Shown: one piece after another, positions 3,139-9,521 of the stretch | How the letters are laid out: each line of letters starts with the position of its first letter | How positions within the stretch are numbered: position 1 is the stretch's first letter | Origin: Capsulimonas sp. | GTDB lineage: Bacteria; Armatimonadota; Armatimonadia; Armatimonadales; Capsulimonadaceae | Reading direction: 5' to 3' | Length of the DNA stretch: 10,707 bases | Assembly: GCA_025963815.1 (NCBI GenBank) | Contig: JAOQAA010000697.1 | Location: forward strand, 1-10,707 | Notes under the pieces: generated by a model | What the model was told of the DNA's origin: nothing | The model's input: only the letters and a program-made list of their open reading frames with translations | Database searches by the model: none | Made by a program: the position numbers and the translations under genes

Positions 3139-3164
3139 CCGGCCGTTCTCGCTTAAACGGCCGG
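3139..3164 (+). other. Short GC-rich hairpin just after ilvC
   Basis: CCGGCCGTT (3139-3147) is the exact reverse complement of AACGGCCGG (3156-3164), leaving an 8-nt loop. It begins 18 nt after the ilvC stop. No T-run follows, so Rho-independent termination is not supported; protection of the mRNA 3' end or a role with the adjoining palindrome is possible. Its last 5 nt overlap the next repeat, so the two folds compete. Confidence 0.5.
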
Positions 3165-3309
3165 CGGTTGAAACCGCGCCTACGAGAGCGCCAAAACCCG
3201 CCTTCGCGGGTTAAATGCCTTTGTTCGATCATCAAGACGTTCGAAAAACAGCATTGAGTCCACGCAGGTGGACTTTGGCGCACTTCTAGGCGCGGTTTCA
3301 ACCGCCGGC
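3160..3309. repeat. 150-bp structured palindromic element (MITE/REP-like)
   Basis: The outer arms 3160-3182 and 3287-3309 are perfect 23-bp reverse complements. After a short mismatched stretch, 'GCGCCAAA' also matches between the two halves. Each half then carries its own small hairpin: AACCCGC/GCGGGTT (3195-3212, loop CTTC) and AGTCCAC/GTGGACT (3257-3274, loop GCAG). The centre can also pair (AATGC 3214-3218 with GCATT 3251-3255). Inside the arms, GCGGT-TGAA-ACCGC (3164-3177) forms a further hairpin. The layout is a nested, branching palindrome with no coding capacity. It resembles dispersed palindromic repeats mobilised in trans, and its sequence is unrelated to the element at 1592-1707. 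No obvious target duplication is visible. Confidence 0.8.
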
Positions 3310-3367
3310 TATTCTGCGATTTGGCCGAGGGGGATGGGGCGCATTTTCAGCAAAGGCAAGAGATTCG

Positions 3368-5427: not shown

Positions 5428-6498
5428 ATGGCGAAGATAGCAGTTTTGGCGGGCGACGGAATCGGCCCGGAGATCATTGCCGAGGGATTGAAGGTCCTCA
5501 AGGCCGTTGCGCCGCAGCAAGGCCTGAACCTTGAGTTCACCGAAGCTCTCGTGGGCGGCGCCGCCTACGACGCCACTGGACACCCGCTCCCCCCGGATAC
5601 ACTCGAACTCGTGCAGAACTCCGACGCCATCTTCTTCGGCGCCGTCGGCGGCCCGCAGTATGACGTCATCCCGGACCCGAACCTGCGCCCCGAGCGCGGC
5701 GCCCTGCTGCCCCTGCGCAAAAAGCTCGGACTCTACGCTAACCTGCGCCCCTGCATTCTCTACTCGGCTCTGTCTTCGGCCTGTCCGCTGCGCGCGGACT
5801 TGGTTCAGGGCGGCTTCGACATTCTCGTCGTCCGCGAACTTACCGGCGGCCTTTACTTCGGTCAGCCGAAAAGCTGGGAAGGCGACAACGCCATCGACAC
5901 CTGCCTTTACAGCCGCGAAGAAATCACCCGAATTCTCCATGTCGCCTTTAAGGCCGCCCAAAAGCGCCCGACAAAGCGTGTCGTCAGCGTCGATAAAGCC
6001 AACGTCATGGAAACCTCGCGCCTCTGGCGCGACACCGCCACCAAAGTCGCCGCCGAGTACCCGGACGTCGAACTCACCCACCAGCTCGTTGACGCGACCG
6101 CCATGGACCTCGTCCGCCGCCCGCAGTCGTTTGACGTCATCGTGACCGAAAACCTCTTCGGCGACATCCTGAGCGACGAAGCCGCCCAGCTCACCGGTTC
6201 TTTAGGAATGCTCCCCTCCGCCTCCCTGGGCCAGGGAACCTTCGGCCTCTACGAACCCAGCCACGGCAGCGCCCCCGACATCGCCGGCACCGGAAAAGCC
6301 AATCCCCTCGCCACAATCCTCAGCGCCGCCCTGCTCCTGCGCTACTCCCTCGGCGCCGAAGCCGCCGCCCTGCAAATTGAGAAAGCAGTAGAGAGCGTCC
6401 TGAACGCCGGCCACCGGACGGGCGACATCGCCGAAACGCCGGACACGAAGATTGTCACCTGTACCGAAATGGGTGATCTGGTCGTCGCGGCGCTGTAA
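5428..6498 (+). CDS. leuB: 3-isopropylmalate dehydrogenase
   Basis: The enzyme performs NAD-dependent oxidative decarboxylation of 3-isopropylmalate in leucine synthesis; in organisms with CimA the same enzyme type can act on 3-methylmalate. The product has 356 residues, normal for the family. Substrate-binding arginines are at 97, 107 and 136, Tyr143 and Lys190 are in the expected places, and the Mg ligands are Asp222, Asp246 and Asp250 ('[17 protein letters not shown]'). The NAD-binding segment is '[15 protein letters not shown]' (279-293). The ATG at 5428 is right because the family N-terminus '[13 protein letters not shown]' starts there; an open stretch back to 5194 only overlaps the GNAT gene. 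AAGGA (5412-5416) lies 11 nt upstream, inside the GNAT gene. Codon third positions are markedly C-rich compared with neighbouring genes. Confidence 0.97.
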
Positions 6499-6867
<369 letters not shown>

Positions 6868-6883
6868 TGTGGTTTTGAGAGAT

Positions 6884-6949
6884 ATGCAATATCTTCTGAT
6901 TGAGATCGCGATTTTCGCGGGCTTCACCATTATGAGCCCGGTCGGGTGA
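6884..6949 (+). CDS. Putative BCAA-rich leader peptide of cimA
   Basis: This is a 21-codon ORF with ATG at 6884 and TGA at 6947. Seven residues are branched-chain: Leu4, Leu5, Ile6, Ile8, Ile10, Ile16 and Val20. A possible GTG start at 6869 in the same frame would add another Val and a Leu. It lies between glnB and a terminator hairpin and upstream of an isoleucine-pathway gene, which is where an attenuation leader peptide would be. Its weak point is initiation: GAGAG (6877-6881) is too close to the ATG for an ideal site. The hydrophobic composition could also be chance; a tiny membrane peptide is a less likely alternative. Confidence 0.5.
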   Translation: MQYLLIEIAIFAGFTIMSPVG

Positions 6950-6954
6950 CACGC

Positions 6955-7007
6955 TGCGCGCGCCTCCCCGGCCGGGACTTCGGCTTGTGGCGGTGCGCAT
7001 TTTTTTT
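6955..7007 (+). terminator. Intrinsic terminator between glnB and cimA
   Basis: TGCGC (6955-6959) pairs with GCGCA (6995-6999). After a 1/2-nt internal bulge, CGCC (6961-6964) pairs with GGCG (6989-6992). An inner GCCG/CGGC stem (6971-6974 with 6981-6984) extends it. Eight Ts follow directly (7000-7007). It could end the leu-glnB transcript or serve as the conditional stop of a cimA leader. The cimA start codon lies 26 nt after the T-run. Confidence 0.75.
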
Positions 7008-7033
7008 GTTATACACCCGAAAAGGAAGAACCA

Positions 7034-8632
7034 ATGACGGCAGCCTCCTCTCGAAAAATCGATATCTATGACACGACCCTGCGCGACGGATCGCAGGGCG
7101 AAGGCATCTCGTTTAGCGTCGAAGACAAGGTCAAGATCGCCAAGCGACTCGACGCGTTTGGCGTGGACTACATCGAAGGCGGATGGCCTGGGAGCAATCC
7201 CAAGGACATCGAGTTCTTCGACCGTATGAAGTCGATCCCCCTGAAGCACGCGAAGCTCGCCGCCTTCGGCAGCACGCGCCGGCCAACGACGACGGCCGAG
7301 ACCGACCCCATGCTTCAGCAGCTTTTGGACGCGCAGACGCCCGTCATCACGTTTGTCGGCAAGAGCTGGGATTTTCACGTCACGGAAGCGCTGCGTATTC
7401 CTTTGGAGACCAACTTGGAGATGATCGCGGACACCACGCGATATTTGAAGTCCAAGGGCAAGGAAGTCATCTACGACGCCGAGCACTTCTTTGACGGTTA
7501 CAAGCGTAATCCCGAATATACATCCAAGTGCGTCGCGGCTGCGCTGGACGCCGGCTGCGATGTGGTGGCGCTTTGCGATACGAATGGCGGCACGCTGCCG
7601 AATGAGATTTCGAAGATCGTTTCTGAGATCGGCGCGCGGTTCCCGAACGGCAAGTTCGCGATCCACACGCACAACGACGCCGAGTGCGGCGTGGCGAACA
7701 GCCTCGCGGCGATCGAAGTCGGCGCCATTCAGGTGCAGGGTACGATCAATGGGCTGGGTGAGCGGACGGGCAATGCAAATCTTACGAGTATCGTCCCAAG
7801 CCTTGGACTGAAGCTGGGCTACGAACTTGCTTGCCAGTCCCGCATGAAAGAGCTTTCCGATCTTTCCAATTTCATTGATGAGATTGCGAACATTCCGCCG
7901 AAGATGTCGGCGGCGTATGTCGGCCGCAGCGCTTTCGCCCATAAGGCTGGCCTGCATGTGGACGCGATGCGCAAGAACTCCGAGACATATGAGCATATTG
8001 ATCCGACGCTCGTCGGCAACGAGCGCCGTATTTTGGTGAGTGAGCATAGCGGGGCCTCGACGATCTTGGAGAAAGTCCAGCGCGACAATTCTGACCTGCG
8101 CAAGGACAGTCCCGAGACGAAAGAGATTTTGAAGCAAGTCGCTCGGCTGGAGCACGAGGGTTACTCCTTCGAAGGCGCGGAGGCGAGCTTCGAACTGCTG
8201 GTGAAGAAGGCGACGGGTCAGTATCGATCGCTGTTCGAACTCACGGGGTACCGGGTTATTGTGGAGCGACGCGGGGGCGATCAAGAGGCGCTGACCGAAG
8301 CGACCGTAAAGCTGCGCGTTCACGGTCAAGAAGTGCTCACGGTCGCCGAAGGCGACGGTCCGGTGAACGCGCTCGACAGCGCGCTGCGCAAGGCGCTCAC
8401 GGAGCATTATCCCGACCTCGCGGATATTCGATTGACCGACTTCAAGGTCCGCGTCGTGAATGCCCGTGAAGGCGCCGCCGCCAAAGTGCGCGCCATCGTG
8501 GACAGCGCCGACGTCTCCGACAGCTGGAGCACCATCGGTGTCTCCACCAATATTATCGACGCCAGCTGGCACGCGCTGGTGGACAGCGTCGAATATGGTC
8601 TGCTTCGAGGGAACGAGGGTTCGGGCGGATAA
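7034..8632 (+). CDS. cimA: (R)-citramalate synthase
   Basis: The enzyme condenses pyruvate with acetyl-CoA to citramalate, the entry to threonine-independent 2-oxobutyrate and isoleucine synthesis. The 532-residue product is a LeuA-superfamily protein of the Geobacter-type CimA group, not a second LeuA: the opening motif is 'DTTLRDGSQGEGISFS' (13-28), where LeuA has 'DGEQSPG', and 'EGGWPGSNPKD' (48-58) is characteristic of this group. Arg17, Asp18, metal ligands His211 and His213 ('HTHNDAECG') and Asn247 are present, as is 'FAHKAGLHVDA' (301-311). The C-terminal regulatory domain (about 395-525), with 'EGDGPVNALDSAL' at 439-451, suggests isoleucine feedback. AGGAAG (7023-7028) precedes the ATG. 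Homocitrate synthase is an alternative of low likelihood given the motif and neighbours. Confidence 0.93.
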   Translation: MTAASSRKIDIYDTTLRDGSQGEGISFSVEDKVKIAKRLDAFGVDYIEGGWPGSNPKDIEFFDRMKSIPLKHAKLAAFGSTRRPTTTAETDPMLQQLLDAQTPVITFVGKSWDFHVTEALRIPLETNLEMIADTTRYLKSKGKEVIYDAEHFFDGYKRNPEYTSKCVAAALDAGCDVVALCDTNGGTLPNEISKIVSEIGARFPNGKFAIHTHNDAECGVANSLAAIEVGAIQVQGTINGLGERTGNANLTSIVPSLGLKLGYELACQSRMKELSDLSNFIDEIANIPPKMSAAYVGRSAFAHKAGLHVDAMRKNSETYEHIDPTLVGNERRILVSEHSGASTILEKVQRDNSDLRKDSPETKEILKQVARLEHEGYSFEGAEASFELLVKKATGQYRSLFELTGYRVIVERRGGDQEALTEATVKLRVHGQEVLTVAEGDGPVNALDSALRKALTEHYPDLADIRLTDFKVRVVNAREGAAAKVRAIVDSADVSDSWSTIGVSTNIIDASWHALVDSVEYGLLRGNEGSGG

Positions 8633-8708: not shown

Positions 8709-9521
8709 ATGAGCAAAGATTCACTGGGCGATCGGATGAAGGGCTACTACGAGAACAGGACGCGGGTGTATTTGCCACGCCGCACATATACTCTTCTTCG
8801 CATTGACGGCAAGAGTTTCCACACCTATACGCGCGACTGCGAACGTCCCTTCGATGTGAACCTTATGGAGGATATGGACCAGACAGCCATGGCGCTCTGC
8901 AAGGGGATTGAAGGCGCACAGTTCGCTTACGTGCAGTCGGATGAGATTAGTATTCTGGTGACTGACTTTGGGCAATTGCAGACGCAGGCGTGGTTCGACG
9001 GCAATGTGCAGAAGCTGGTCTCGATCTCGGCGTCTATGGCGGCGGCGCATTTCAACGCCGCGCGCTGGCGTCGTCTGGCGGCAAAGGGCGAGAGCAATTC
9101 ACTCGACGACGCCCCGATTGCGTTCTTCGACAGCCGAGCGTTTACCATCCCCGATCCTGTCGAAGTTGCGAACTACTTCATCTGGCGAGGGCAGGACGCC
9201 ACACGCAATTCGATCTCGATGACCGCGCACGCGCATTTCGAGCACGATCTGCTCCAGGGCAAGACATCGGACGAGATGCAGGAACTGCTCTGGATGCATA
9301 AGGGGATTAATTGGAATGATATGCCGGGCGGGTTCAAGCGGGGACGGTGCATTGTCAATAACCGCACCGTGGGCGATGTCGCGTTTACCGACAAGCGCAC
9401 TGGCGATATGCATCTGGCCCTCAATGTCGAGCGTAATGTGTGGGAAATCGAGATCCCTCCGATCTTCAGTCAGGACCGAAACTGGCTGGAAGGGCATATT
9501 CCGAAATATTCGGGAAACTGA
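8709..9521 (+). CDS. Thg1-like protein (tRNAHis guanylyltransferase family 3'-5' polymerase)
   Basis: This is a 270-residue member of the Thg1 family, which adds nucleotides to RNA 5' ends in the reverse (3'-5') direction. Eukaryotic Thg1 adds G-1 to tRNAHis. Bacterial Thg1-like proteins (TLPs) prefer template-directed repair of 5'-truncated tRNAs in vitro, and their cellular role is largely unsettled. The metal-binding palm residues are visible: 'RIDGKSFHTYTR' (31-42, Asp33) and 'QSDEISIL' (76-83, Asp78). 'FFDSRAF' (139-145) and 'EVANYFIWRGQDATRNSIS' (152-170) match the TLP form, where eukaryotic Thg1 has a 'HINNLYN' motif. I favour ATG 8709, with GGA 7 nt upstream; an in-frame ATG at 8691 is possible. 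The start lies only 28 nt beyond the cimA terminator. A tRNA-Arg gene follows. Confidence 0.92.
   Translation: MSKDSLGDRMKGYYENRTRVYLPRRTYTLLRIDGKSFHTYTRDCERPFDVNLMEDMDQTAMALCKGIEGAQFAYVQSDEISILVTDFGQLQTQAWFDGNVQKLVSISASMAAAHFNAARWRRLAAKGESNSLDDAPIAFFDSRAFTIPDPVEVANYFIWRGQDATRNSISMTAHAHFEHDLLQGKTSDEMQELLWMHKGINWNDMPGGFKRGRCIVNNRTVGDVAFTDKRTGDMHLALNVERNVWEIEIPPIFSQDRNWLEGHIPKYSGN

Follow-up and report, generated by a model that had tools for sequence, protein, structure and literature searches.

How is the isoleucine branch adjusted to its supply when the gene for its entry enzyme lies within a row of other branched-chain amino acid (BCAA) genes? Citramalate synthase, the product of cimA, catalyses the entry step of the citramalate pathway towards isoleucine. 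The stretch of Capsulimonas DNA analysed here (10,707 nucleotides, called the window) is such a BCAA gene row, in the order ilvB, ilvN, a small ORF, ilvC, leuA, a GNAT acetyltransferase gene, leuB, a PII gene, cimA, a Thg1-like gene and a tRNA gene. The protein-coding genes were assigned by Pfam and NCBIfam profile matches, except for ilvB, which is truncated by the contig end, and ilvN, both of which we take from their sequences to be these genes; the small ORF between ilvN and ilvC has no Pfam match. cimA (7034..8632, forward strand like the PII gene and the leader elements) scores 735.6 bits with the equivalog TIGR00977 against a cut-off of 450, and by this match its product is clearly a citramalate synthase. 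The PII (glnB-like) gene upstream of it (6529..6867; Pfam P-II, 118.7 bits) matches the NCBIfam PII equivalogs under their cut-offs.

Several neighbouring features deserve mention in their own right. A PII gene adjoins cimA or lies within a few kb of it at 8 of 20 phylum loci checked (PII-near-cimA loci: the window, 6529-6867, and L112, L113, L114, L116, L117, L126, L127 and L129), and a nitrogen link to isoleucine synthesis is possible. The Thg1-like tRNA-His guanylyltransferase gene (8712-9521; Pfam, 92.9 bits) stands between cimA and the tRNA gene, likewise in another genome of the same genus, G001. By eye, inverted repeats of the GGTTGAAACC type, REP- or MITE-like, occupy the gap between ilvC and leuA (3155-3310) and are also found upstream of the leader of a further family genome, G004 (L113).

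An earlier note on this DNA had proposed that the gap between glnB and cimA holds a transcription attenuator governed by leucine and isoleucine codons, and all of its element coordinates were reproduced: a short leader ORF, a 10-bp helix, two terminator arms, a T8 tract and, by eye, a back-pairing. On our best reading of the sequence, the region is very probably a ribosome-mediated transcription attenuator in which isoleucine supply sets cimA expression. The antiterminator 5' arm (6937..6946) lies in the last leader codons and ends directly before the stop codon; it forms 10 bp, one of them G-U, with a 3' arm (6967..6976) inside the terminator. The terminator 5' arm (6955..6964) is located in the antiterminator loop and the 3' arm (6989..6999; sequence and fold) precedes the T8 tract (7000..7007), while the inner stem predicted by folding (6970..6985; 6970-6975 with 6980-6985) overlaps the antiterminator 3' arm. 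A possible protector hairpin (6918..6940; 6918-6923 with 6935-6940) corresponds to the back-pairing; by eye it recurs in G001, where A-U replaces a U-A pair, and was not seen in the relatives G004, G005 and G003.

Taken alone, the window is only partly above chance. A helix as long at that place arises in 28 of 2000 dinucleotide shuffles, the region folds with z = -1.83, and 12 of 200 shuffles fold equally well. A simple terminator scan, which covers loops of 3-8 bases only, lists no terminator. These values are suggestive only, and it is the comparison with relatives that carries the case.

For this comparison, cimA upstream regions were drawn from the family, the order and the phylum. The arrangement precedes cimA in five of seven family genomes and four of five genera: besides the window, G001, G004, G005 and G003 have a short ORF ending in P-x-G-stop followed by two helices. 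The common ORF, helix, terminator and spacing in these five genomes support the proposed attenuator before cimA. Among the other two, G006 has no cimA match, and G002 lacks the whole element, with 11 bases from the glnB stop to the cimA start; no leader was seen by eye between its leuB and glnB either. The earlier note had named, as a pattern that would speak against it, relatives that lose the ORF or its BCAA codons and keep the terminator; of the six genomes with cimA, five have the complete element and G002 has lost all of it. The cimA tree (16 rows, midpoint root as drawn) places six family members together (95/90) and G002 beside the genus of the window (95/88). Since G002 is thus grouped within the family and lacks the element, one gain at the family base plus one loss would be the simplest account, and the tree fits vertical inheritance.

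Trained on the five family elements, a covariance model scores 71.7-97 bits on these source sequences, as expected by construction, and at most 31.1 bits elsewhere in 251 phylum genomes. Under stricter filters, 14 of these genomes reach E <= 0.5, the five carriers at no more than 3.2e-15 and nine others at 5.4e-4 to 0.495. The nine (best G089, 31.1 bits) were dropped as weak, so that no convincing place beyond the five carriers was found in the 251 Armatimonadota genomes; the three of them that were inspected, L143, L144 and L145, have no gene of the window's set within about 1.5 kb. The model has no match in G002 or G006, and in G003 it scores one further place weakly (20.2 bits, E 0.43).

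Which amino acid would such a leader read? Starting at the ATG proposed earlier, the ORF spans 6884..6949 with 21 sense codons, including 4 Ile, 2 Leu and 1 Val, and the stop TGA at 6947-6949. The ORF itself stands, and its start can also be placed at an in-frame GTG one base past the glnB stop (6869..6949; MVLRDMQYLLIEIAIFAGFTIMSPVG), which gives 26 codons and coincides with the ATG of the likewise 26-codon ORF in G001. The leader is probably translated in this genus through coupling to the end of glnB, and this coupling may offset its weak ribosome site. Isoleucine codons number 4 of 26 in the window, 6 of 26 in G001, 5 of 19 in G004, 6 of 26 in G005 and 5 of 17 in G003, so that every short ORF carries 4-6 codons of the relevant amino acid. 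Codons -16, -14, -12 and -6 from the stop all encode Ile in the window, G001 and G005; position -6 is Ile in all five leaders and -12 in four. Counts as high are reached in 18, 59, 228 and 232 of 5000 shuffles for G001, G004, G005 and G003, an enrichment that is clear in the first two and weaker in the others; the count of the window leader by itself does not exceed chance (779 of 5000 dinucleotide shuffles). Leucine was dropped as the signal: with the window in its 26-codon reading, the same leaders (window, G001, G004, G005, G003) hold 3, 1, 1, 2 and 0 Leu codons versus 4, 6, 5, 6 and 5 Ile codons, and 2, 1, 0, 0 and 0 Val codons. Of the Leu/Ile signal first proposed, the isoleucine half is therefore retained and the leucine half, at 0-3 codons per leader, is not; as read from the codons, the common signal is isoleucine.

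The antiterminator keeps a nearly constant position relative to the leader. Relative to the first nucleotide of the stop codon, its 5' arm runs from -11/-10 to -2/-1 and its 3' arm from +20/+21 to +29/+30 in all five genomes, with helices of 10, 10, 11, 10 and 9 bp in the window, G001, G004, G005 and G003. When the 5' arm end was confined to the seven positions from -4 to +2 of that base and spacings to 12-44, helices as long appeared in 31, 7, 15 and 61 of 2000 shuffles for G001, G004, G005 and G003. Across the five-sequence alignment, 96% of the antiterminator cells are paired; for the whole structure the figure is 87.2%, and no slid version exceeds 46.4%. Compensatory changes, which the earlier note had suggested looking for in the helices, are present in the antiterminator, where 2 of 10 pairs are changed on both sides; in G005 and G003 the arms of the terminator are poorly aligned. 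Of 500 column shuffles, 23 reach the observed number of paired cells, 34 that of cells with double changes, 143 that of double-change pairs, 151 the covariation score, and all 500 the number of further pair types. Covariation in the element is thus present but modest, and the sample is small at five sequences.

How could these parts work as a switch? With ample Ile-tRNA, the ribosome would reach the leader stop and occupy the antiterminator 5' arm; the terminator would then fold and transcription would end at the T8 tract. With scarce Ile-tRNA, the ribosome would stall at Ile codon -16, -14 or -12 and leave that arm free. The free arm would pair with the 3' arm once the latter is made and deprive the terminator of bases, so that RNA polymerase would continue into cimA. 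By eye, the arms follow the order A5'-T5'-A3'-T3' (A, antiterminator; T, terminator) in the window, G001, G004 and G005, and therefore both helices cannot form nested there; in G003, the antiterminator 3' arm itself is the terminator 5' arm. By their pairing, all five elements accordingly have two mutually exclusive helices, one of them a predicted intrinsic terminator, with a poor T tract in G004 (ATTGTCTCC).

Folding calculations bear on each state of this scheme. When a ribosome at the stop is modelled by freeing only the RNA that begins 8 or 11 bases past the first base of the stop, the best fold is a hairpin with the terminator 3' arm in all five genomes, in a shifted register in G005 at 11 bases. 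The earlier worry that a terminating ribosome would also reach the terminator 5' arm looks minor, as the RNA free from +11 still forms a terminator of -27.3 kcal/mol. If the 5' arm is left free, only G005 has the antiterminator as its most stable full-length structure; the window, G001 and G004 favour the terminator form, and G003 favours a third fold in which the 5' arm pairs with the terminator 3' arm. The choice would thus have to be kinetic, and we assume that it is, because the antiterminator hairpins, at -21.7 to -29.7 kcal/mol alone, are complete before the terminator 3' arm is made. A stall at -6, the best conserved Ile codon, covers part of the antiterminator, and the terminator remains the best fold in the window, G001, G004 and G005. 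When the RNA is folded from the ORF start with no ribosome, the antiterminator forms in the window, G001 and G005 and the terminator in G004 and G003; a leader that is not translated would therefore not necessarily terminate transcription.

Could a simpler device leave the same traces? A plain intergenic terminator might end the ilv-leu-glnB transcript while cimA uses its own promoter and the ORF is incidental. Such a terminator would account for the GC-rich hairpin with its T8 tract and sits well with the chance-level Ile content of the window leader, but it leaves unexplained the second, exclusive helix at a constant place to the leader stop in five of five genomes. A sigma-70 consensus scan, which leaves room for other promoter types, lists no site in 6400-7200. 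Moreover, the element goes with cimA and not with glnB, because in G003 it follows leuB on a 3600-base locus where no PII gene was found, and in G004 some 800 bases separate it from the PII gene. A terminator of this kind is therefore quite unlikely as the explanation.

Two other accounts accept the switch and move the sensor elsewhere. It is highly improbable that a protein- or ligand-sensing RNA switches both helices with the ORF as a by-product of conserved sequence: most of the primary sequence around the stop codon is indeed conserved in four of five genomes, yet the loop of G003 has diverged with its ORF, Ile codons and helix kept, and Rfam 15 gives no family match at 6869-7033 up to E = 5. 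Arrest of the ribosome by the leader peptide, with arrest and not Ile starvation setting the switch, draws on the fact that all five leaders end in P-(V/A/T)-G-stop; since the P-x-G codons are also the antiterminator 5' arm, the RNA helix alone explains their conservation, and the Ile enrichment would be left over, which makes this account extremely improbable. Attenuation by a ribosome that stalls at isoleucine codons is the reading retained below.

How do other members of the phylum control cimA? The survey covered 78 upstream regions from 82 genomes with cimA, omitting the window and G012, G014 and G069, where the cimA start is missing; the regions of G034 (52 bases) and G018 (19 bases) are short, and those of G057, G029 and G025 are below the full 606. 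The T-box core pattern precedes cimA in G027 and G029 only, and the T-box model scores there, 64.3 and 34.5 bits respectively, are both below the Rfam cut-off of 93. These T-box-like leaders belong to two other families and read AUC (Ile), the specifier register having been calibrated on T-boxes before genes that we take from their sequences to be valS (GUC) and pheS (UUC). The specifier is CUC (Leu) in the T-boxes before ilvB of G001 (L132:8324-8578, 101.3 bits), G002, G004, G005 and G006 (L133, L136, L157 and L159 besides L132), although the reading is less regular in G004 and G005. As a separate observation, L227 and L230 have T-boxes before thrC-like genes; the specifier there is Met-like (AUG) and, in L227, irregular.

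The T-box of G001 heads the gene row that carries the attenuator. In G004 the T-box shares contig and strand with the attenuator and precedes ilvB in a longer and looser row, and in G005 the T-box and cimA are on different contigs; both devices are thus found in one gene row in G001 and G004 only. The T-box model has no match in the assembly of the window (G000; 69% complete, the contig beginning inside ilvB), and no T-box was found between glnB and cimA in the window. From these gene orders we tentatively sketch a BCAA operon in which a Leu T-box before ilvB would govern the whole operon and the Ile attenuator would trim the cimA step only, where other families use an Ile T-box, with the leader coupled to PII so that translation of the nitrogen regulator would feed the Ile sensor; this composite is possible, though we would not bet on it. 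The idea that cimA is the sole source of 2-ketobutyrate was dropped, as a profile search finds threonine deaminase above cut-off in G000, G001, G003 and G005; it is not above cut-off in G002, G004 and G006, draft assemblies in which absence weighs little.

A search of the 78 regions for an Ile leader with a terminator recovers G001, G003 and G005 (plus the window); the criterion was drawn up after leaders had been seen and misses G004 because of its T tract. A looser list holds further short ORFs with at least 3 Ile codons before cimA. Those of G057, G044, G035, G031 and G016 were rejected by eye, having no hairpin and T tract behind them. In G007 (L122), about 100-170 bases 5' of cimA, a short ORF MNFFHRSGGIAQITPRPHR was noticed by eye; a TATAAC-like box precedes it and a GC-rich stretch with TTTTGTTTT follows it, and this region is possibly a divergent attenuator.

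Is cimA preceded by such leaders outside the phylum? Among 80 cimA loci elsewhere, none has a T-box core within 400 bases of cimA, and one, L076 (labelled Deltaproteobacteria), passed a first filter. Around this genome (34 genomes with cimA, 30 loci scored, ten shuffles each, criterion set after seeing leaders), an Ile leader and terminator precede cimA at 16 of 30 loci, with 0.4 expected from shuffles: L231, L233-L235, L238, L241, L245, L247-L249, L251, L252 and L256-L259. The leaders are Ile-rich, several with an II(I)RP stretch. At all 13 positives checked (L247, L248 and L252 were left out), a helix of 8-14 bp is possible between the leader end or spacer and the terminator 5' arm, a count without shuffle control. 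These leaders suggest that cimA attenuation is wider than one family. Their descent from the family leader was dropped as an explanation: model R1, whose reach is limited to close relatives, matched none of 25 loci besides the window, and common descent is unsupported because the model does not recognise them. Around a Prosthecobacter genome, different Ile-containing short ORFs (MG....IRI..G....), similar among themselves, stand before some cimA genes (L101, L263-L266, L268-L270), and their ends can form a hairpin.

Searches of the open-licence PMC literature found no description of a cimA attenuator, and none appears in the available text of PMC1262725, PMC10272879, PMC12452182 and PMC10411014. 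Short, BCAA-rich uORFs are known before BCAA genes in the ilvB-II, ilvB-OMG and ilvB motifs (PMC10272879) and in actinobacterial ilvB leaders (PMC1262725), and attenuation has been proposed or tested for such uORFs (PMC10272879, PMC1262725). As described in the available text of these sources, they precede ilvB, and the cimA leader has no Rfam match. In a lineage that has received little study, the element described here offers a concrete and testable candidate for the sensor that serves the citramalate route to isoleucine. One gene, cimA, appears to be controlled by an Ile T-box in some families and by an Ile leader peptide in one other.

The attenuation mechanism itself is classical and already known. 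Enterobacterial ilvL and leuL are ribosome-mediated attenuators of ilv and leu genes, and the cimA leader shares with them a leader ORF rich in codons for the end product, an exclusive antiterminator and terminator, and a terminator before the structural gene. It differs in that the target is cimA and the signal Ile, in the arm order A5'-T5'-A3'-T3' of four of five elements, G003 alone having the classical build, and, in the genus of the window, in its position inside a gene row after glnB. The T-box-like leaders of G027 and G029 serve the same gene and the same amino acid (specifier AUC), but are of a tRNA-binding RNA type without leader peptide. A known parallel to a row with both devices is the rtpA (at) operon of Bacillus subtilis, which combines a T-box with a Trp leader peptide; T-box and leader-peptide sensing within one operon are common to both, whereas a single amino acid and a translational effect are involved there, and Leu and Ile at two places here.
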